Source: Prochlorococcus sp. AG-402-L09 (GTDB lineage Bacteria; Cyanobacteriota; Cyanobacteriia; PCC-6307; Cyanobiaceae). Taken from it: 64,000 nucleotides of DNA. Positions 52,222-61,749 of this stretch are shown piece after piece (positions within the stretch are counted from its first letter, which is position 1; each line of letters opens with the position of its first letter). Below the pieces are notes generated by a model. That model worked only from the letters and a program-made list of their open reading frames with translations, was not told the DNA's origin and did not search any database. A program made the position numbers and the translations under genes. The stretch covers positions 1 to 64,000 of the forward strand of contig QCIK01000007.1 of the NCBI GenBank assembly GCA_003216715.1, given 5' to 3'.

Positions 52222-53295
52222 TTATTCGAATCCTTGAGGTGACGTTCTTGTCCGAACCTTAAACTCCCAAACCGTAATTCCTCCATTTGCATTTATTGCA
52301 GCCAACGCAGTGTCATCAGGATTCCAAGCGATTTGGCTTACAAGGTCACCTGCAAATGCACCACCAACTGGATCACCCTGACCATCTTTTTGGAGAAACC
52401 AAGAAAAAACTGAACCATCTCGCGCACCAGAAGCTAAAAGCATCCCGCTATGTGAGAAAGCAAGGCATGAAATGGGTTCGGTATGAAGCATTAACTCTCC
52501 TGGCACAGTGCCTTCAGGACCATCGCCTTGAAAACTCCAAACTGTCACTCGATCACTACCTCCGGTAGCAAGGACTGTGCCGGTTTGATCAAAAGCTAGG
52601 TGGCTTGGTTTACCTGGATAGCCTGTCATCTCTGAATCTTGATCAGTTGAACGACGCCAGAAATGAACAGAATTATCCTGACTGCCGCATGCCACTATAT
52701 CTCCATCTGGACTAAGCACCATAGATACAAGTGAGCCTCTCCACTCCAACTTTTGATTGATCTTGTCGCTTACTACATCAAAAAAAGTTACTTGGCCATA
52801 GCATGCTGTTGCTAATTCATTTGAATTAGACCAAGAAATTGCGCTGACAGTGCTTGGATGCTTCTCTGATCGCCAATGTTCTTGACCTTCTTCATCAAAA
52901 ACATAGACGTATTTAGTAAAAACTACTGCTAAAAATTTTCCGTCTGGAGACCACTTGATGTGCTCAACCCATCCTTTCCCAAGTTCTAAATTTTTAGTTG
53001 ACTTACCTTCTTGGCTTTCCCATATATACACATGTCCATCCTGGCCAGCAGTTGCAAAAGTATTTCCATCTGGATGAATAGACATTGCTAGTAAGCCACC
53101 TTTGTGGATGTCTTTTATTTTCCAAATTAGCTTTCCAGAATTCCCCTCAAATGCGTAAAGTCCACCAGCGACATCACCTACTAAAAAAGTTTTACCTTGA
53201 AGTGCCCAGCCGCAGACAATGGCGTAGTCGTCAGCTTGAGCAGACCAACCTTCATGAAGCATTCCCTTGGGACTAAATGCCTCTATACCAGGCAT
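52222..53295 (-). CDS. WD40 repeat beta-propeller protein
   Basis: The 357-residue protein consists of seven WD40-type repeats. Typical ends are ATAGQDGHVYIWES, VACGSQDNSVHFWRR, LATGGSDRVTVWSF, LLASGARDGSVFSWF and the final GGITVWEFKV. It has no signal peptide, so it is cytoplasmic. The start ATG (53293-53295) lies inside the 3' end of the COG0523 GTPase gene (13-base overlap), so it is translationally coupled to it. It probably acts as a scaffold for the GTPase or its client. Its place in the zinc locus is the only clue to function. Confidence 0.88.
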   Translation of the reverse strand: MPGIEAFSPKGMLHEGWSAQADDYAIVCGWALQGKTFLVGDVAGGLYAFEGNSGKLIWKIKDIHKGGLLAMSIHPDGNTFATAGQDGHVYIWESQEGKSTKNLELGKGWVEHIKWSPDGKFLAVVFTKYVYVFDEEGQEHWRSEKHPSTVSAISWSNSNELATACYGQVTFFDVVSDKINQKLEWRGSLVSMVLSPDGDIVACGSQDNSVHFWRRSTDQDSEMTGYPGKPSHLAFDQTGTVLATGGSDRVTVWSFQGDGPEGTVPGELMLHTEPISCLAFSHSGMLLASGARDGSVFSWFLQKDGQGDPVGGAFAGDLVSQIAWNPDDTALAAINANGGITVWEFKVRTRTSPQGFE

Positions 53296-54665
53296 TTGTT
53301 AAACTCCCTGCTCATTTCTGCTTCATCAAGATTTCTACCGATAAAGACAAGTTGGTTGCGGCGAGGTTCATCGCCCCATTCTTTATCAGGTTGAGCGGTG
53401 AAGAGCATATGTACTCCTTGAAAAACTATTCGCCGGGACTCTCCCGCATAACTAATGAAACCCTTTGTACGAAATATGTCCACACCTTTTTCTGATAGGA
53501 GCCTACTTAACCACCTATTGAGTTTTTCTGGATCTACATCGCCTACTCGCTCGATAGCAAATGAACCAACTTCGTCGTCGTGTTCGTGCTCGGCTACCCA
53601 AGTCCGCTCAGCTATTGGAGAAATTATAGAGATGTTCTGATCTGTCTTTACCTCGTCCGTAGGAGGAGTATTTACTTTCGTTAATTTCATATTAAATTCT
53701 TCGGCTGTATGTTGAGTGAATAGACCTATATCCATTGCCTTATCAACATCTATGAAGAAGGACTTAGTCCCTTCGGATTGAAGTAGAAGGCTCACATGCT
53801 TGCCGACTGGAACTATATCCCCTGGATTCAAGGGTTGTTCTTGTTCTGCATAGAGTCTCACGCAAGATTCAGCACCTGTGTTGAGAGCAGTCTCGTCTTT
53901 ACCTTGGTCTGACAACAGGACTAGAGACATTGTGGGGTCTGGGCCTTCTTCGAGCGACAGTTCATAGCGACCTTCTTTAAGTGAAAAAACACCTGTCCAC
54001 TCAAATGGGTATTCTGGTTCAAGAAAAGTTGGACGACGCTGAAGTACTTGATCAAGATTAAAAGCACTTAGATTTAGCACAGTATCAATTGAGACGTCTG
54101 CTTGTTTACTGCGTATGACACGAGCCATGCGATTCATATCGCGTAGCCTTGACTCTAAGTTGTCGAGTGATTTATCTGAAACTAGATCAGTTTTATTTAG
54201 AACAAGGACGTCAGCGAAGGCAACTTGCTCCGAACTTTCATCACTTCGACCAAGTTGTTGTTCTATGTGGGCTGCGTCCACAAGTGTGACAATGCCATCG
54301 AGTGAAAACTCATCACGGATTTCATCGTCCATGAAGAATGTCTGAGCTACAGGGCCAGGATCAGCAAGGCCAGTAGTTTCAACTAATACATAGTCAAATT
54401 TGTCTCGCCTCTTCATGAGGTTTCCTAGTACACGAATTAAATCTCCACGTACGGTGCAGCAGATGCAACCATTAGACATCTCGAACACCTCTTCATCAGC
54501 ATTGATTACTAATCCTTGATCAATACCAACTTCACCATATTCATTTTCAATAACAGCTATTTTTTTACCGTGCTCTTCGCTTAGGATTCGATTGAGAAGA
54601 GTCGTTTTACCAGATCCGAGGAAACCAGTCAGTATTGTTACCGGTACTTTTTGTTTGTTGCTCAT
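53283..54665 (-). CDS. COG0523 (CobW/ZigA-type) metal-chaperone GTPase with an extra ~110-residue domain
   Basis: I take ATG 54665 (MSNKQKVPVTILTGFLGSGK), giving 460 residues. Walker A is GFLGSGKTTLLNRI (14-27), then IENEYGEVGID (~39-49), the metal motif GCICCTVRGDL (~66-76), ETTGLADPGPV (~96-106) and NKTD (157-160). The C-terminal domain (~365-460) has GDVDPEKLNRWLSRLL and KGFISYAGESRRIVFQGVHM. Residues ~219-330 are an insertion not seen in usual CobW C-terminal regions, and it aligns with an insertion in ZnuA (55048). Family members move or insert zinc or cobalt under metal limitation. The gene precedes the WD40 gene and follows an unknown small gene. Confidence 0.92.
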   Translation of the reverse strand: MSNKQKVPVTILTGFLGSGKTTLLNRILSEEHGKKIAVIENEYGEVGIDQGLVINADEEVFEMSNGCICCTVRGDLIRVLGNLMKRRDKFDYVLVETTGLADPGPVAQTFFMDDEIRDEFSLDGIVTLVDAAHIEQQLGRSDESSEQVAFADVLVLNKTDLVSDKSLDNLESRLRDMNRMARVIRSKQADVSIDTVLNLSAFNLDQVLQRRPTFLEPEYPFEWTGVFSLKEGRYELSLEEGPDPTMSLVLLSDQGKDETALNTGAESCVRLYAEQEQPLNPGDIVPVGKHVSLLLQSEGTKSFFIDVDKAMDIGLFTQHTAEEFNMKLTKVNTPPTDEVKTDQNISIISPIAERTWVAEHEHDDEVGSFAIERVGDVDPEKLNRWLSRLLSEKGVDIFRTKGFISYAGESRRIVFQGVHMLFTAQPDKEWGDEPRRNQLVFIGRNLDEAEMSREFNKCLV

Positions 54666-54673
54666 TTCATTCA

Positions 54674-54991
54674 CTAATGATGTGAACAATTGGAGTTATC
54701 AAGAGAAATGTCAGTTAGCCAATTCTCTTGTAGACCCAATAAGTCTAGCGACTTTGATTCAAAGTCATCAAGCTCATAATAATTGTATGGAACTTTTAAT
54801 CTAACTGTATTTTTTCCATTTTCTTTTTTAAGCGAGTGATTGGAAAATTGAAGTTCTTTTAAATTGTCATCAAAGTCAGTTGAGATAGTAAGTTTTAAGA
54901 TCTTATATCTATTCCATGGTGGTTTATCCATAAAACTTGCTTGATCTTCCCAATGTTTTTTATAGGCGTTGAACCCTTTAGTTGGAAACAT
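54674..54991 (-). CDS. Hypothetical protein of the zinc locus, 105 aa
   Basis: The soluble protein starts at ATG 54991 (MFPTKGFNAYKKHWEDQASF). It has beta-like segments (YKILKLTISTDF, NTVRLKVPYNYYELDDF) and ends in DISLDNSNCSHH, a Cys-Ser-His-His end that could bind metal. It lies 8 bases before the COG0523 start and just after the hairpin at 55000-55034, so it is probably cotranscribed with znuA and the GTPase. The family is not recognised. Confidence 0.65.
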   Translation of the reverse strand: MFPTKGFNAYKKHWEDQASFMDKPPWNRYKILKLTISTDFDDNLKELQFSNHSLKKENGKNTVRLKVPYNYYELDDFESKSLDLLGLQENWLTDISLDNSNCSHH

Positions 54992-54999
54992 TTTTTTTA

Positions 55000-55034
55000 A
55001 ATCCTGTCTGCATTACATAAATGTAAACAGGATT
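55000..55034 (-). promoter_or_regulatory. Long bulged hairpin between znuA and the downstream genes
   Basis: Outer arms AATCCTGT (55000-55007) and ACAGGATT (55027-55034) pair perfectly. Inner arms TTACAT (55013-55018) and ATGTAA (55021-55026) stack directly on one side with a 5-base bulge on the other, giving 14 bp. On the minus strand it lies between the znuA stop codon and the next start, with an A-rich tract, not a T run, following. It may protect the znuA 3' end or block read-through. It could also be an operator. Confidence 0.6.
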
Positions 55035-55047
55035 GTATGTGTAAAAG

Positions 55048-56565
55048 TTAAGGGTTACTTAAACTATTCCATTTACTCTCAAGTTGATCGCCCGCTTTCT
55101 CGTCACATTCACCACCAAGAGAATCAACAATTGTACATGTGTTGTGTACTGCGACTGAAACAGTATTCCCTTCTAGCATTAGACCATCAACAAAGATTTG
55201 ATTTCTTGCAATAGGAGTGGAAGTTTGTCTGCTCAGGTTTTTCAATAGCTTGGAAGGAGGCTTTTGCTCAGCGAATAATACGTTCACGTTTTCTTCTTTG
55301 AGCTCAGCTATAACCGTTGAAATAGTCTCTGGTCTAAGGCTGGAAGAATCACCAAGGAAATCTAATAGACTCAAAGTCTTCAAGCCAAATGCATCTCCGT
55401 AATATTCCATCGCTTTGTGCTTAGAAACGATTGTCCTTCGATCAGTAGGAATTGTGGCAACTTGTTTTTGAGTCCATAAGTCTAGATCTTCCAAAATAGA
55501 ATTAACGGCTTGAGTTCTTTCTTTTAAAACTTTTTTTGTTTCTCTGTCAAAGAAGGAAATTTTCTTATTGATATTTTTAGAAATTACATTTCCCATCTTG
55601 ATGATGTTATGAGGGTCATGCCAGATATGAGGATCTAGCCCACCATGATCATGGTGATGATGATGATCGCCTTCATCTGGGACTTGAGCAATCGGTTCAA
55701 CATCGTCGCCTGAAACATCCTTAAAGAAATGTTCGTCGGCTTCAAATTCAAAAGGCATATGCTCAGTAAAGAATGCATATTTACCAGCTTTTTTGATTTC
55801 TACAGTAAATGTTGTGGTATCTCTCTTTTCATTAAATGTAAGAAAATATGCTTTTTCCTGCGCAACAAGTTTGTCATTATTGCGTTTGGTCTCTGAATTC
55901 TTAGAACCTAACAATTCTTTAGCAAGCTTTTCTGATGCTTCAATATCACCAGAGTTGAGAATAACCATTTTCATTGCAGGATCAGCATAGTCTCCATCAA
56001 CTTTGGCAAAAGACCATTTGTATGTTCCTGCTGAAAGATCAAAAACACCAGCCCATTCAAATTCTCCTTCTCCGTGGCTATCGCCATGATCATCATGGTC
56101 ATCATGATCGTCATGTTTAGCCGCTGAATGATCACCGTGGTCATCATCCTTAGCAACTGAATGATCATCGTGATCGTCATGATGATCGTCTATTTCTATT
56201 GCACTTACGCCGACAACAACAGTTAAAGGATTATCTAACCATTTTTTGATAGCAGGGGTCATCTCTGAACCAAGAGTAAATACTTGGTTTGCACTTTTCA
56301 GTGTTTGGGCCTGTCTTGGAGTGATTTTGACATCATGAACATCTTGTTTTCTATCAATTAAGCAGGTTACAGGTGTTGAAGGTGGTGCAATCGCAGAAAC
56401 GACATCGCATACTAATGGCTCTACGGCAACAATTGGTTTTGAATTTGCCTGTGCACTCTGATTAATTCCCGAGAATAAAAATGCTCCAGCAAGAAAAGAG
56501 CACTTAAGGACTGTTTTATTGAATATTGTTTTACTTTTGATGTGTTGATTAATCAATTTCGACAT
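55048..56565 (-). CDS. znuA: Zinc ABC transporter, periplasmic binding protein ZnuA with an extra domain and two His-rich loops
   Basis: The 505-residue protein is ~200 residues longer than a usual ZnuA. Its layout is a signal peptide (~1-41, ending SAQANS), an N-terminal lobe, a His/Asp-rich stretch (~126-165, repeated DDHDDH units) and an extra ~110-residue domain (~168-280, FEWAGVFDLSAGTY to FFTEHMPFEFE). A second His cluster (~301-308) leads to the canonical ZnuA motif LDPHIWHDPHN (~310-320). The C-terminal lobe has RRTIVSKHKAMEYYGDAFGL and ends in a Cys-containing tail. It captures zinc for ZnuBC. A Zur-type box lies 30 bases upstream, shared with divergent znuC. Confidence 0.93.
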   Translation of the reverse strand: MSKLINQHIKSKTIFNKTVLKCSFLAGAFLFSGINQSAQANSKPIVAVEPLVCDVVSAIAPPSTPVTCLIDRKQDVHDVKITPRQAQTLKSANQVFTLGSEMTPAIKKWLDNPLTVVVGVSAIEIDDHHDDHDDHSVAKDDDHGDHSAAKHDDHDDHDDHGDSHGEGEFEWAGVFDLSAGTYKWSFAKVDGDYADPAMKMVILNSGDIEASEKLAKELLGSKNSETKRNNDKLVAQEKAYFLTFNEKRDTTTFTVEIKKAGKYAFFTEHMPFEFEADEHFFKDVSGDDVEPIAQVPDEGDHHHHHDHGGLDPHIWHDPHNIIKMGNVISKNINKKISFFDRETKKVLKERTQAVNSILEDLDLWTQKQVATIPTDRRTIVSKHKAMEYYGDAFGLKTLSLLDFLGDSSSLRPETISTVIAELKEENVNVLFAEQKPPSKLLKNLSRQTSTPIARNQIFVDGLMLEGNTVSVAVHNTCTIVDSLGGECDEKAGDQLESKWNSLSNP

Positions 56566-56594: not shown

Positions 56595-56609
56595 CGATAA
56601 TCATTTTCA
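56595..56609. promoter_or_regulatory. Zur box between znuA and znuC
   Basis: CGATAATCATTTTCA matches the cyanobacterial Zur palindrome TGATAAT-N-ATTATCA at 12 of 14 defined positions. It is placed 30 bases from the znuA start and 51 bases from the znuC start, so one operator would control both divergent units. With a zur gene in the same locus the assignment is strong. Confidence 0.8.
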
Positions 56610-56659
56610 TTTGAGATTGGCAAGTATATTATGTTTCTTGTCAGCAAATCCTTTAATTG

Positions 56660-57355
56660 ATGTCTAGTTTGATTGCTGAAAATGTGACATATTCCTATTC
56701 CAGCAATATCAAGCCTGCTTTAAGTAAGGTTTCTCTTGATCTTGAGCAAGGTACTTTGACTGCTCTTGTTGGTCCGAATGGCGCCGGTAAGTCTACCTTA
56801 TTAAGTCTGCTGCAAGGGAGTAGCACTCCGGATCAAGGAGAAATTACTGTTGATGGAAAACCATTGAGAAATAATAGATCTCAAGTAGCTTTAATGCCTC
56901 AGAGGGGAAAGCTGAATTGGAATTTTCCAATTACTGTTGAAGGATTAGTCTCTTTAGGTCGAGTCAATCATTCTAGATCGACTTGTTGTGAATTAGAAGC
57001 TGCCCTTCAACGTGTTGGAATATCTCATTTAGCAAAAAGGAGACTTGATACTTTGTCTGGTGGACAGCAGCAAAGAGCATTACTTGCAAAAACATTAATG
57101 AATCCAGCCAAAATTTTTCTTCTTGATGAACCTTGCTCCGCCTTTGATCCTCCCGCTAAAGAAGATTTCCTGTTAATCATTCGTCAGCTAGCTGATTCTG
57201 GATTCACTGTCTTTGTTAGTAGTCACGACTGGGGAACATCTTTAAATGCCTATGACAAGGTTGTTGCTTTAGATAAAATTGTTTTAGCTTCTGGCAGCCC
57301 TCGGGAAGTTCAAGAAAAACTTAGTTCAATTAATTATTTGAGGTGGAAGTTATAG
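56660..57355 (+). CDS. znuC: Zinc ABC transporter, ATPase ZnuC
   Basis: I take ATG 56660 (MSSLIAENVTYSYS), giving 231 residues. Walker A is GPNGAGKSTLLSLL, the signature is LSGGQQQRALLAKTLM, Walker B is IFLLDEPCSAFD and the switch His is in VSSHDWG. It powers zinc import with ZnuB. It is divergent from znuA across the Zur box and converges on zur, so znuC and znuB are not adjacent. Confidence 0.95.
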   Translation: MSSLIAENVTYSYSSNIKPALSKVSLDLEQGTLTALVGPNGAGKSTLLSLLQGSSTPDQGEITVDGKPLRNNRSQVALMPQRGKLNWNFPITVEGLVSLGRVNHSRSTCCELEAALQRVGISHLAKRRLDTLSGGQQQRALLAKTLMNPAKIFLLDEPCSAFDPPAKEDFLLIIRQLADSGFTVFVSSHDWGTSLNAYDKVVALDKIVLASGSPREVQEKLSSINYLRWKL

Positions 57356-57378: not shown

Positions 57379-57783
57379 TTATCCAACATTAATTTGCTGA
57401 GAACAATTTTGGCAGAGACCAAAGTACTCAAGAGTATGAAACAAAAGCTCAAATTTTTTAGAAGTTTTTTTGGACAGATCAGTGTTTTGGACCGGACATC
57501 CCTTCACGCGTGTGGTTTCTCCACAGCTTACGCAAGTTAAATGATGAATATCTCTTTCAACTGGTGCATAAAGAACCTCACCATTGGGAAGATGTCTGGA
57601 ACGAATCAAACCTTGCTTTACTAGTGCTTGCAGGTTTCTATAGACCGTGGTCAGTCCCATTGCCTTTTCACCATTATGAAGTTGTCTATGCAGTTCTTGC
57701 CCACTCAATTCATCAGTACATTTCTTGAGTTCATTGAGCAGTTGCTGTTGACGTCTAGTGATGTCAGGCTTGTTTTTACTCAT
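57379..57783 (-). CDS. zur: Fur-family regulator, probably Zur
   Basis: I take ATG 57783 (MSKNKPDITRRQQQLLNELK), giving 134 residues. The winged-helix part includes ELHRQLHNGEKAMGLTTVYR and NLQALVKQGLI. The structural zinc site is given by CVSCG and CQNCS, and the regulatory metal site by DIHHLTC and related residues. Position between znuC and znuB and a Zur-type box in the znuA-znuC region identify it as the zinc sensor rather than Fur or PerR. Confidence 0.9.
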   Translation of the reverse strand: MSKNKPDITRRQQQLLNELKKCTDELSGQELHRQLHNGEKAMGLTTVYRNLQALVKQGLIRSRHLPNGEVLYAPVERDIHHLTCVSCGETTRVKGCPVQNTDLSKKTSKKFELLFHTLEYFGLCQNCSQQINVG

Positions 57784-57836
57784 TAGCAATATCTAGATTT
57801 GATCTCTCTTACTGAACATACTGAATCATTGGCTTA

Positions 57837-58622
57837 ATGTCTTTTTTCAATACAAATTGGTGGATAATTCCTCTTTTGATAACTTCCTTTTCAGGAATAC
57901 TGTGCCCTGCCATGGGAACTGTATTGATCACTCATAAAAGGCTTCTTCAAGTTAATTTGATTTCGCATTGTGTGCTGCCAGGTCTTGCTTTGGCTATGGC
58001 GCTTGGTTTGGATCCTTCTATTGGTGGAGTCATCAGCGGCTTGGTAGGAGCTATTGCAGCAGAAAGCTTGACAAATAAAAAAAATCAAAATTATGAAGCG
58101 GTTATGAATACAATTCTTGCTGGTTCGATGGGACTCGGTGTTTTGCTTATCCCTCTACTGGGTATCAGGATTGATTTGGAGGCTGTTTTATTTGGAGATT
58201 TATTAACTGCAAATCTTAGTGATCTGCTAAGAACTTTGATCGCTTTCTCGGTATTTATTTGCTTGATGCTTTTTGGTTACGACAAGCTTGTTCATATTGG
58301 TCTTGATCCAGAAGGAGCTGCTTCAAGTGGAGTTAATGTATCTTTTTTAAATTTGGCTCTTGGTTTTACTACTGCACTTGTCATTGTGAGTTCAATGTCT
58401 GCAGTGGGAGTCATTCTTGTGATTGCATTACTTTCAACCCCAACTTTGTTGGGATTACAGAAAGCAAGATCTTTATGGATTGCGATGGTTAGATCCTCCA
58501 TATTTGGATTAATTTTATCGCTTATAGGTTTTTCTCTTGCTATGTTTTTGAATTTGCCTCCTGGACCTTTGATTAGTGTGCTTTGTGTGATTTCATTGAT
58601 TTTGCTACCAAATAATAGATAG
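57837..58622 (+). CDS. znuB: Zinc ABC transporter, permease ZnuB
   Basis: The 261-residue protein has ~8 membrane spans and the ABC-3 family pattern: FSGILCPAMGTVLITHKRLL, SHCVLPGLALAMALGLDP, and SSMSAVGVILVIALLSTPTL near the C terminus. It forms the channel energised by ZnuC. It is divergent from zur, with 53 bases between the two starts, where I see no second Zur box. Confidence 0.94.
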   Translation: MSFFNTNWWIIPLLITSFSGILCPAMGTVLITHKRLLQVNLISHCVLPGLALAMALGLDPSIGGVISGLVGAIAAESLTNKKNQNYEAVMNTILAGSMGLGVLLIPLLGIRIDLEAVLFGDLLTANLSDLLRTLIAFSVFICLMLFGYDKLVHIGLDPEGAASSGVNVSFLNLALGFTTALVIVSSMSAVGVILVIALLSTPTLLGLQKARSLWIAMVRSSIFGLILSLIGFSLAMFLNLPPGPLISVLCVISLILLPNNR

Positions 58623-59539: not shown

Positions 59540-59983
59540 TTAGTTAGGGTTGATATGGATTGCACAAGGCATCCATAATTTACCCATCTTGTGGACACCA
59601 TTGCATCCGATCTTTTTGGCTTCAATCTCTGCCTGAGCTTTGGTTGGATATGCATATATATTTTTTGAAGACGAAGAATTAGAACGATTGATTGACTCCT
59701 GAATAGCATTGTTTTCTGGACTCCATACCTTTAGGCCCATGGTTGTTATTCCGGCAGAAAATATTCCCATACCGACTATTGATGCATTCAATACTCCCAT
59801 GGCTACAGCGCCAATAGAAACGACACCCATGGGAACAATTCCAATGCTAACAATCCCCATGGGAACAATTCCAATGGAAATGAATCCAAGTGGTGCTATG
59901 CCAAATGCAATTTTTTTTGGTTTGCTTCCACAATGAGAAGGCCCTTCGATATCTTTTTGATTTGTACTATTTTTGATTGTCAT
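59540..59983 (-). CDS. Repeat protein with C-terminal DUF3721-like motif
   Basis: The 147-residue protein has a central array of ~6 ten-residue units (residues ~27-85), each of the type SIGIVPMGIV or SIGAVAMGVL, which could form a beta-helix or membrane-inserting sheet. The C terminus reads AYPTKAQAEIEAKKIGCNGV-HKMGKLWMPC, the DUF3721-like Cys/His/WMPC motif also found in the next gene. The DNA carries the matching near-exact repeats (59827-59847 and 59857-59877). It follows the lipoprotein gene by 15 bases on the same strand. Confidence 0.65.
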   Translation of the reverse strand: MTIKNSTNQKDIEGPSHCGSKPKKIAFGIAPLGFISIGIVPMGIVSIGIVPMGVVSIGAVAMGVLNASIVGMGIFSAGITTMGLKVWSPENNAIQESINRSNSSSSKNIYAYPTKAQAEIEAKKIGCNGVHKMGKLWMPCAIHINPN

Positions 59984-59998
59984 TTATTGTTCGAAAAT

Positions 59999-60256
59999 CT
60001 AGTGATGATGGTGATGTTCATTGTTGGACTTGTGATGTTCTTTATCCTCATGAGCAGAATGACTTTTACAAGGCATCCATTTGTCACCCATTTTATGAGC
60101 TCCAGTGCAATTGAAATTCTTGGCTGCTTTTTCGGCTTCTATTTTTGTCTCAAAAAGAGAGGGAGTACCTTTTGTTTGAGAATTCTCTGAACATCCTATT
60201 AGTGAAAATGATATAGAAAGAATAATTGTGGAGAAAATAGGCGTGAATTTGTTCAT
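59999..60256 (-). CDS. Lipoprotein with DUF3721-like motif and His tail
   Basis: The 85-residue protein has a lipoprotein signal (MNKFTPIFSTIILSISFSLI-GCS, lipobox LIGC). The mature part shows KIEAEKAAKNFNCTGAHKMG-DKWMPC, a DUF3721-like motif. The tail is His-rich (HEDKEHHKSNNEHHHHH). A periplasmic or outer-membrane-anchored metal-binding role is inferred from the ligands and the zinc-locus context. It is 15 bases upstream of the repeat protein with the same motif. Confidence 0.72.
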   Translation of the reverse strand: MNKFTPIFSTIILSISFSLIGCSENSQTKGTPSLFETKIEAEKAAKNFNCTGAHKMGDKWMPCKSHSAHEDKEHHKSNNEHHHHH

Positions 60257-60549: not shown

Positions 60550-61749
60550 ATGAGACTCTTTGCTCAATTAATCTCAATCCCTGCTGTCTTAGGTTTCATG
60601 ACTCCAATTGCTGTTCAAGCAGGAGGTGAAAAGCACAAAGGTCATCATGATCACCATGGTAGTCATATGAATATGGGAGATTCATACCCCTCAACTATGT
60701 TTATGGGTAAAACGACTTTTGTTTTGGGTGGAGTAGATGGCGTGAGCGATTCTGGAATGGGTGGAATGGGTGGAATGGGTGGAATGGGTGGAATGTCTAC
60801 TGCTGACGAAAAGGATGGAACAGTTTTTCATTACGATACGAAGTTAATGTTTATGACCAGTTTCACAGGGCAAGACATGCTTAAAACTGCTGTTCGCGTA
60901 GGTAATTTCGGGATGATGGAGCCCTTCGGGATGATGGGTGAGGCAAGATTAGATACTGCTTTCAGTAGCAATGATTCTTTAGAACTTCATAAGGCTTTTT
61001 ATCAGTTTCCTGTTGGAGATGATATTCATGTAACTTTTGGTCCCAAGCTCCGCCAAGATGATTTGCTTGGAGTGTGGCCAAGTACTTACCCAGGCGATGG
61101 AGTCTTGTTTGTCTTGAATCAGGCAGGTGCAAGTGATACCTATTCCAAGAAGATGGGCGCGGGCGCTGGAATTACTTGGTCCTATGACAAATTAGTTGCT
61201 TCTGCACTTTTCGTTTCAGAAGACGCATCAAATTCTTCGATTGGCTTTTTAGCTGATGAAGGCAAAGACCACACAACCGCTCAATTGGCATGGGTTGACG
61301 AGAAATATATTTTAGCAGCTGCCTACACACAGGCTGATAACGGGAATACTGATAACTCTCCTGATAGTAATGACTACTCCTCTTTTGGTATTAGTGGTAG
61401 CTATCAATTTGGAGACGACTACAGCTTGAGTGCAGGAATGGGATGGAAAAATCCTGATAACGAGGATAGTCCTGATACTTCAATGAATAAGGTGGAGCAT
61501 GGCAAGACATGGTCTGTTGGATTCTTATGGAATAATGCTTTGATTGAAGGTAATAAGTTTGGTTTTGGTATTGGAACAGCAGAAACTCATAGAGATGACA
61601 GTGGTTATGACGATCCTTTAGCTTGGGAAGCTTTTTATGATTTTAAAGTGAACGATAGTGTCACAGTCACCCCAGCTATCTTTGTTGTCGAGAAAGATGG
61701 TAAAGAGGACGTTAATGGAGCTTTGGTGAAAACTACTTTTAATTTCTAG
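60550..61749 (+). CDS. Outer-membrane porin with His-rich N terminus
   Basis: The 399-residue protein has the same type of signal peptide as the porin at 36141 (MRLFAQLISIPAVLGFMTPI-AVQA). The mature start is His-rich (GGEKHKGHHDHHGSHMNMG, residues ~25-43), then comes a GGM repeat (~70-82), followed by a barrel-like region of alternating strands ending in VKTTFNF (aromatic C terminus). No SLH domain is present. The His-rich start and the adjacent zinc genes suggest a metal-related channel; no Zur box is evident in the 293-base upstream gap. Confidence 0.75.
   Translation: MRLFAQLISIPAVLGFMTPIAVQAGGEKHKGHHDHHGSHMNMGDSYPSTMFMGKTTFVLGGVDGVSDSGMGGMGGMGGMGGMSTADEKDGTVFHYDTKLMFMTSFTGQDMLKTAVRVGNFGMMEPFGMMGEARLDTAFSSNDSLELHKAFYQFPVGDDIHVTFGPKLRQDDLLGVWPSTYPGDGVLFVLNQAGASDTYSKKMGAGAGITWSYDKLVASALFVSEDASNSSIGFLADEGKDHTTAQLAWVDEKYILAAAYTQADNGNTDNSPDSNDYSSFGISGSYQFGDDYSLSAGMGWKNPDNEDSPDTSMNKVEHGKTWSVGFLWNNALIEGNKFGFGIGTAETHRDDSGYDDPLAWEAFYDFKVNDSVTVTPAIFVVEKDGKEDVNGALVKTTFNF
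60754..60796 (+). repeat. Tandem 9-bp repeat within the porin gene
   Basis: The unit GGAATGGGT occurs four times in a row (starting at 60754, 60763, 60772 and 60781), followed by a partial unit. It encodes GMG units. Slippage would change length in frame. Confidence 0.85.

Follow-up and report, generated by a model that had tools for sequence, protein, structure and literature searches.

How GTPases of the COG0523 family receive or deliver zinc, and what role the histidine-rich (His-rich) loops of the zinc-binding protein ZnuA play, is still debated. This study concerns a domain that occurs in both kinds of protein within a single zinc locus of Prochlorococcus sp. AG-402-L09, situated in a stretch of 64,000 nucleotides (contig QCIK01000007.1, positions 1 to 64,000; hereafter the window). 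The closest described genes are the prokaryotic COG0523 genes of subfamily 5, which, in the available part of the account, cluster with WD40, znuABC, and creatinase genes, several of them downstream of predicted Zur sites (Haas et al., 2009, PMC2770081). The same text reports COG0523 genes with putative Zur sites in Prochlorococcus marinus (PMC2770081), and the znu cluster synw0968-synw0973 of Synechococcus WH8102, uncharacterised neighbours included, is described in an accessible excerpt as Zur-repressed (PMC9337993). WD40 and znuABC neighbours and Zur sites fit the window locus, whose GTPase is placed in subfamily 5 by neighbourhood alone (WD40, znuABC); the available text on subfamily 5 mentions neither the insertion of a domain nor a segment in common with ZnuA, both of which are present here (PMC2770081).

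The ZnuA of the window resembles the binding proteins of ZnuA-type ATP-binding cassette (ABC) importers in belonging to the same family (PF01297) and in having a His-rich loop before DPHxW. Small metal-binding units that are reused in transporters and chaperones are familiar from HMA domains, which have a ferredoxin-like fold and a CxxC site; the domain studied here shows the same kind of use but is predicted to be beta-rich, has no conserved cysteine (Cys) in the domain alignments and no HMA match in Pfam, and carries a candidate site of two glutamates, an aspartate and a histidine (E-D-H-E). AztD, a propeller, and ZinT, another extracytoplasmic zinc protein, are like ZepA and like this domain tied to zinc uptake, but all three are separate proteins, going by their descriptions. 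As far as the available parts of these papers go, AztD genes are often found near ZnuA-family and CobW genes and WD40 proteins are among the structural matches of AztD (PMC6689063), and ZepA is a PEP-CTERM exoprotein with an H-F/Y-H motif (PMC10957091). Searches of the open literature, judged by titles and abstract openings among the matches listed, gave no paper describing the domain; the gene neighbourhood is already known, and the domain itself appears to be undescribed. The reading favoured here, at a probability of roughly 0.58, is that it is a metal-binding relay domain, which would link a collecting His-rich stretch to the metal site of the host itself and would use the E-D-H-E set.

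Results

Two homologous segments in one zinc locus

The two host genes are znuA (55048..56565, minus strand; 505 amino acids) and the COG0523/G3E GTPase gene (53283..54689, minus strand; 468 amino acids, with a likely start at 54665, minus strand, where MSNKQ begins at residue 9). Residues 169-283 of ZnuA (core at 55717..56061, minus strand; modelled as 55666-56076) and residues 229-335 of the GTPase (core at 53685..54005, minus strand; modelled as 53577-54017) are homologous. Comparison of the whole proteins by BLASTP gave an expectation value (E) of 1e-7 with 45/181 identical columns (~25%), and hhalign, run on 14 cyanobacterial ZnuA segments against 41 GTPase segments, returned 99.4% and E=1.5e-21 over 102 columns. 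The motifs E-W, D-P-x-M, and T-x-H-x-P-x-E-F follow one another in this order in both copies, as FEWAGVF at 169, ADPAM at 194-198, and FTEHMPFEF at 266 in ZnuA and as FEWTGVF at 229, PDPTM at 250-254, and FTQHTAEEF at 324 in the GTPase, where the last motif has A for P; the same series, with variation at single positions, is found in 65 representatives. These results agree with the original prediction, made from the sequence of the window, that the segment aligns over its whole length, and the profile-profile similarity on which that prediction was staked is significant. A chance or convergent resemblance of two low-complexity inserts might be suspected from the low identity of the two window copies and from a BLASTP alignment that extends into a His/Asp-rich tail; this explanation is refuted by the hhalign result, is further opposed by conserved residues that are collinear in 65 representatives, by the same predicted order of main elements, and by intermediates in many phyla, and is given next to no weight.

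In ZnuA, the segment interrupts the PF01297 match (E 3.1e-46), which falls into two stretches (profile positions 1-98 and 81-260) flanking the insert, and ZnuA differs in this respect from its solved relatives, whose best matching stretches fall to one side of the insert or the other. As had been noted at the outset, the segment lies between two His-rich stretches, a His/Asp-rich one upstream (56062..56187, minus strand; residues about 127-168) and HHHHHDHGG downstream (55639..55665, minus strand; residues 301-309), both read from the sequence. The GTPase was originally taken to have its C-terminal domain split by the segment, which turned out to be wrong: the segment sits between the GTPase domain (PF02492, E 2.1e-61; cobW, residues 16-192, with GCICC at residue 74) and an intact CobW_C domain (PF07683, E 9.6e-26; residues 375-467, profile positions 2-94 of 94), and the best stretch matching the solved YjiA ends at residue 222. 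An H-x-H motif follows the domain in the GTPase (53580..53588, minus strand; residues 368 and 370). Judged by eye, ZnuA starts with a signal-like N-terminal stretch, and no membrane segment was predicted in the GTPase; use of the domain on both sides of the inner membrane, as anticipated, follows from these hosts, one of periplasmic ZnuA type and the other without a predicted membrane segment.

Searching the 1.62 Mb genome with the ZnuA segment returned the segment itself and the GTPase segment only (E=1.9e-5), and these matches included neither the remaining ZnuA-like gene of the genome nor its further CobW-family genes.

Host proteins and distribution

Translated searches of 72,556 plasmid records gave 11 and 9 records with the two window copies and 11 with a Poribacterial copy. 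Among them were haloarchaeal ZnuA-like proteins with the domain inside a His-rich loop before DPHFW (L057, L058, L064, and L065), small haloarchaeal proteins that begin like lipoproteins and are His-rich at the end (L056, L062, and L063, the last of which is encoded beside a urease cluster), COG0523 GTPases of Paraburkholderia and Pantoea, and an Alicyclobacillus membrane protein. A scan of genome contigs from 84,980 species gave at least 590 candidate stretches, 541 of which encode a relative. The best 80 of these 541 were kept, and 78 of them are COG0523 GTPases, some cut by contig ends, from Poribacteria, Acidobacteriota, Planctomycetota, Chloroflexota, Actinomycetota, Verrucomicrobiota, Pseudomonadota, and Cyanobacteriota.

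The other two of the 80 are a Paenibacillus CDF exporter (L069, PF01545) and an Alicyclobacillus membrane protein (L067). In the exporter the domain follows the C-terminal domain and lies between His-containing stretches, and in the membrane protein (L055/L067) it follows a His-rich stretch: by a simple hydropathy scan L067 has six helices, with the domain in a His-rich loop after helix 3, and near L055 lie a metal-sensitive regulator and cation transporters. A likeness of this membrane host to NicO/RcnA was an impression by eye and was dropped, as Pfam gave no match above its cut-off. A further lipoprotein from a single Bacilli genome of the class of G152 (L164) is encoded beside genes read as cbiM/cbiQ, so that two of the four lipoproteins (L063 and L164) lie beside nickel or cobalt genes. 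Altogether, the hosts comprise COG0523 GTPases (eight phyla), ZnuA (cyanobacteria, Verrucomicrobia, and haloarchaea), the CDF exporter, the membrane protein, and the small lipoproteins. Most of them are metal proteins; metal is what the majority of hosts share, and the shared location is a His-rich linker or tail. The proposal that the domain is mobile is strongly supported by these several unrelated architectures in bacteria and archaea.

Counting whole genomes, including the search centres and genomes already known to carry the domain, matches were present in 36/151 genomes of the window's family (single-sequence query), 3/299 of the class of G152, 23/292 Cyanobacteria, 21/240 Verrucomicrobiota (many partial and of a variant form), 2/398 Pseudomonadota, and 23/301 Chloroflexota; by these counts the domain is widespread but not common. 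The expectation that neither family normally has the segment needs to be divided: it stands for the other ZnuA-like and CobW-family genes of the window's own genome, but a broad COG0523 subfamily carries the domain, so that the window GTPase is nothing unusual within this subfamily and insertion into ZnuA is the rarer form.

Repetition was also seen. The ZnuA of one cyanobacterium (G067; L030/L049) has two tandem copies of the domain about 140 residues apart. A second ZnuA (G078; L015/L053, 873 amino acids) was considered as another tandem case and rejected, as its repeated unit is 323 residues long and looks like a partial gene duplication. On a Haloarcula halophila plasmid (L058, L059), a block of GTPase, molybdenum-cofactor, and cobalt genes is repeated, and the ZnuA-like gene of the second copy is broken.

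Predicted fold and database searches

The original prediction had not recognised the segment as a named domain, and the same holds for the libraries: at curated cut-offs, neither Pfam nor NCBIfam placed anything over the segment in the two window proteins and eight further domain-bearing proteins per library. A PF04655 match to residues 250-306 of the GTPase (14.6 bits) was below threshold and taken as chance, and identity with a known domain was discarded, with no match at cut-off in Pfam, NCBIfam, or PHROGs. Profile searches of the PDB found no solved relative (best E 0.018 and 0.74), and the hits of the first search, the best of them to a chain called sc-CC-7-LI over a helical stretch (E 0.018), were rejected as chance.

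For structure prediction, AlphaFold2 was given one alignment per segment, consisting of the window copy and relatives from the genome-contig scan. Both models were confident, with a mean predicted local distance difference test score (pLDDT) of 90.1 and a predicted template modelling score (pTM) of 0.84 for the ZnuA segment, and 91.1 and 0.86 for the GTPase segment. Both contain three strands, a long helix, and then strands at 62-64/60-63, 76-80/75-79, 87-94/85-91, and 98-104/95-101 (ZnuA/GTPase); a short strand at 69-71 and a short helix at 108-111 are found in the ZnuA model alone, and two C-terminal strands in the GTPase model alone. The anticipated common fold is thus supported by two confident models with their main elements in the same order, a comparison made by element order that is not a fully independent test because the two alignments share rows. 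According to these models, the segment probably folds on its own, as a beta-rich domain of about 115-140 residues.

When the models were compared by Foldseek with 350,542 PDB chains, 0/1028 and 0/1091 matches reached E<=0.001, the best being E 0.047 and 0.055. The 50 matches listed per model all had E>0.04 and a template modelling (TM) score to the query of <=0.42; apparent structural relatives such as haemagglutinins, picornavirus capsids, Epa adhesins, CBM35, and others were dismissed as noise from common beta folds.

Conserved residues and a candidate metal site

Conservation singled out four polar residues as candidate metal ligands: E170, D195, H269, and E273 in ZnuA (55747..56058, minus strand) and E230, D251, H327, and E331 in the GTPase (53697..54002, minus strand). 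In 65 representatives thinned from 166 full-length copies, the E of FEW is present in 64, the D of DP in 64, the H of FTxH in 64, and the E of EF in 65. The genome-contig scan used the motif [LF][FV]T[EQA]Hx[PA][EDF]EF, which enforces the H and the second E in loci so found; because of this, the 31 representatives from outside the motif scan were counted apart and weigh most, and here the figures are 30, 30, 30, and 31, with GTPase, ZnuA, lipoprotein, and membrane-protein hosts included. The sole exception is a Verrucomicrobial GTPase (L196), in which E, D, and H are all missing and the W, G, and L positions are kept.

A variant form of the domain was found in 18 Verrucomicrobial GTPases (L197-L214), which were excluded from the 65 since the domain is split for the profile. 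These have 9-24 His in a stretch at the D loop, the first E is retained in 18/18, and the H position, matched by motif position, is His in 6/18 and Cys in 12/18, the motif there having turned into Cys-Gly or into a different His form. Such a pattern is as expected of a D/H metal site rebuilt with other ligands, although it is not proof of one. The H-x-H motif that follows the domain was present in 120/120 full-length GTPase copies when recounted without cutting rows at the motif (an earlier finding of invariance was partly by construction). At least three His in one flank were found in all 42 single-copy full-length non-GTPase hosts counted, many of which are close relatives.

The conservation also bears on another explanation, in which the domain is a structural spacer or lid, a stable unit that keeps the His-rich loop in order or shuts the site of the host and has no metal of its own. 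Its position suits such a role, between or after the host Pfam domains in COG0523 and the CDF exporter and at the His-rich loop in ZnuA, as do the tandem copies about 140 residues apart in cyanobacterial ZnuA. Left unexplained, however, are four near-invariant polar residues over several host types, the His-rich insert and the Cys/His branch, and the stand-alone lipoproteins, and a spacer is accordingly considered improbable.

Association with a WD40 gene

A WD40 repeat protein is encoded next to the GTPase in the window (52222..53295, minus strand), overlapping the end of the GTPase gene, and it is a conserved neighbour of domain-bearing COG0523 genes: in the best-80 set, a related WD40 gene follows 75 of the 78 domain-bearing COG0523 loci, the exceptions being L068, where the contig ends, L079, and L135. 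Among 151 genomes of the window's family, a close WD40 orthologue was found in 38 (E<=1.1e-114) and distant WD40 proteins only in 13 more. All 38 have the domain in COG0523 (36 by the first search, G066 and G112 later); these genomes are related and hence not independent, and the other 113 were probed only with the ZnuA segment as a single query. In 30 genomes of the family the domain is present in ZnuA, and in 30/30 of these the GTPase has it too. On one Verrucomicrobial contig, a GTPase with the domain, a WD40 protein, a ZnuA with the domain, and an ABC ATPase are encoded in one row, followed by a permease match.

This linkage raises the main rival to a metal-binding relay, namely that the domain is a docking module whose partner is a protein (in the cytosol the WD40 propeller, outside it a different one) and which carries no metal, with E-D-H-E as part of a binding face. 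Besides the 75/78 loci and the 38/38 related genomes, it could draw on the His-rich Verrucomicrobial variants, only 2/18 of which show a WD40 gene in the ~1 kb flank examined; a Fisher value from this comparison was disregarded, as related genomes are not independent. Against docking speak the occurrence of the domain outside the cytosol, in ZnuA and lipoproteins, its presence in archaeal and Bacilli loci where no WD40 gene was seen alongside, the retention of the WD40 neighbour by the GTPase that lacks E, D, and H (L196/L242), and the H position, which keeps its metal-ligand type when changed. Docking in place of metal binding is therefore regarded as unlikely, if less so than a spacer; in the GTPase, docking towards WD40 may coexist with metal binding.

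Origin of the copies

A tree of the 65 domain sequences (111 columns) was poorly resolved, with 22/62 inner branches starred. One group (100/99) unites the ZnuA copies of cyanobacteria with those of Verrucomicrobia, which sit on a long branch; in a second (96/80), the ZnuA copies and the lipoproteins of haloarchaea fall together, and a third (95/87) holds the Bacillota transporter copies. The remainder are GTPase copies, except for the lipoprotein from Bacilli, whose branch is very long and has no settled place. Two changes of the ZnuA label are needed and are forced by supported branches. By this tree, the His-rich loop of ZnuA may have received the domain twice independently, or once, with a later release of the domain as a lipoprotein: both would fit. 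A recent duplication within the genome was considered and rejected: the window GTPase copy groups with cyanobacterial GTPase copies and the ZnuA copy with ZnuA copies, and because each groups with its own host type, the two are not recent duplicates of each other. A phage origin was likewise set aside, as one scan of viral contigs found no relative (eight pattern matches, none confirmed).

Other features of the locus

A divergent promoter separates two groups of genes in the locus: the first consists of znuC, a FUR-family gene, and znuB, the second of znuA, a small open reading frame (ORF), and the genes for the GTPase and the WD40 protein. Named from sequence and position are znuC (ABC ATPase; 56657..57355, plus strand) and znuB (ABC permease; 57837..58622, plus strand), and the FUR-family regulator between them (57379..57789, minus strand), identified by a library match, is probably zur. 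The small ORF between znuA and the GTPase (54674..54991, minus strand; 105 amino acids) is conserved in several relatives at 58-90% identity and had no match in Pfam or NCBIfam. A candidate Zur box, CGATAATCATTTTCA, lies between znuA and znuC (56595..56609, plus strand), with one mismatch to the palindrome TGANAATNATTNTCA. Motif counts in the window were near chance (15 observed, 13.2 expected), as were those of a second pattern read off the 56595 site itself (7 and 6.25), and the genome count equalled that of the reversed control (6 and 6); because the counts are not above chance in window or genome, the box is no more than a candidate.

Further along, two adjacent DUF3721 proteins are encoded near the zinc locus (59540-59983 and 59999-60256, minus strand; PF12518, E 9e-18 and 5e-19), the first with GLTT repeats and the second, by eye, with a lipobox-like start and a His-rich tail. 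Also near the locus, 60550-61749 (plus strand) encodes an iron-uptake-porin-like protein (NF033921, 96.5 bits at a cut-off of 100) whose N-terminal part is His- and Met-rich.

Discussion

The domain is found inserted into, or beside, His-rich metal-capturing stretches of unrelated metal carriers, and it most likely binds one divalent transition metal via E-D-H-E: zinc in the present locus, and probably nickel or cobalt in some hosts. A floppy His-rich stretch would collect the metal, and the ordered domain would relay it to the host's own site. In ZnuA, the domain may hand zinc from the periplasm on to the cleft that binds the substrate; in the COG0523 GTPase, with its H-x-H after the domain, it may hold zinc, or gate it, for delivery driven by GTP, and the WD40 protein encoded next to it is a likely partner of this form. 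The metal handling proposed in the original prediction is supported indirectly, by host identity, the His-rich flanks of non-GTPase hosts, E-D-H-E, and the His-rich insert; from these I infer metal binding itself, as well as which metal is bound, the direction of transfer, and the role of WD40. Whether the domain has spread, by repeated insertion at the His-rich stretches that collect metal, to become a shared component for handing over zinc, nickel, and cobalt during import, export, and chaperoning, in bacteria and archaea and on both sides of the membrane, is a broader proposal for which I see roughly even odds.

A number of observations weigh against a metal relay. Only 5/120 GTPases have at least three His in a flank, so that the description of His-rich flanks fails for the commonest host. 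The exceptional L196 also lacks P and M in the DPxM motif and F in the EF motif, and because these are lost too, it may be merely a decayed copy; 2/18 of the His-rich variants still have GPD at the D loop. The gene neighbourhoods are not uniform either: in G065 the two domain-bearing genes lie far apart on one contig and are not neighbours, two haloarchaeal ZnuA copies (L058, L064) adjoin COG0523 genes without the domain, and no metal gene could be recognised in the ~5 kb to each side of the genes for the lipoproteins L056 and L062. Next to the forms in haloarchaea, transporters, and lipoproteins no WD40 gene was seen, and for that reason it is not part of a universal mechanism. Lastly, since Foldseek found no significant solved relative, a function is not borrowable from structure.

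The existence of a domain common to ZnuA and COG0523 GTPases, with four candidate ligands and with small natural stand-alone versions, allows direct questions on binding and transfer to be asked. For annotators, it is a new domain that ties together several kinds of metal proteins, including lipoproteins of unknown function, two of which lie beside nickel or cobalt genes. Zinc is scarce for marine picocyanobacteria, and if the relay reading is true, one zinc locus in marine cyanobacteria would equip both the binding protein of the importer and a cytosolic GTPase with the same relay domain.

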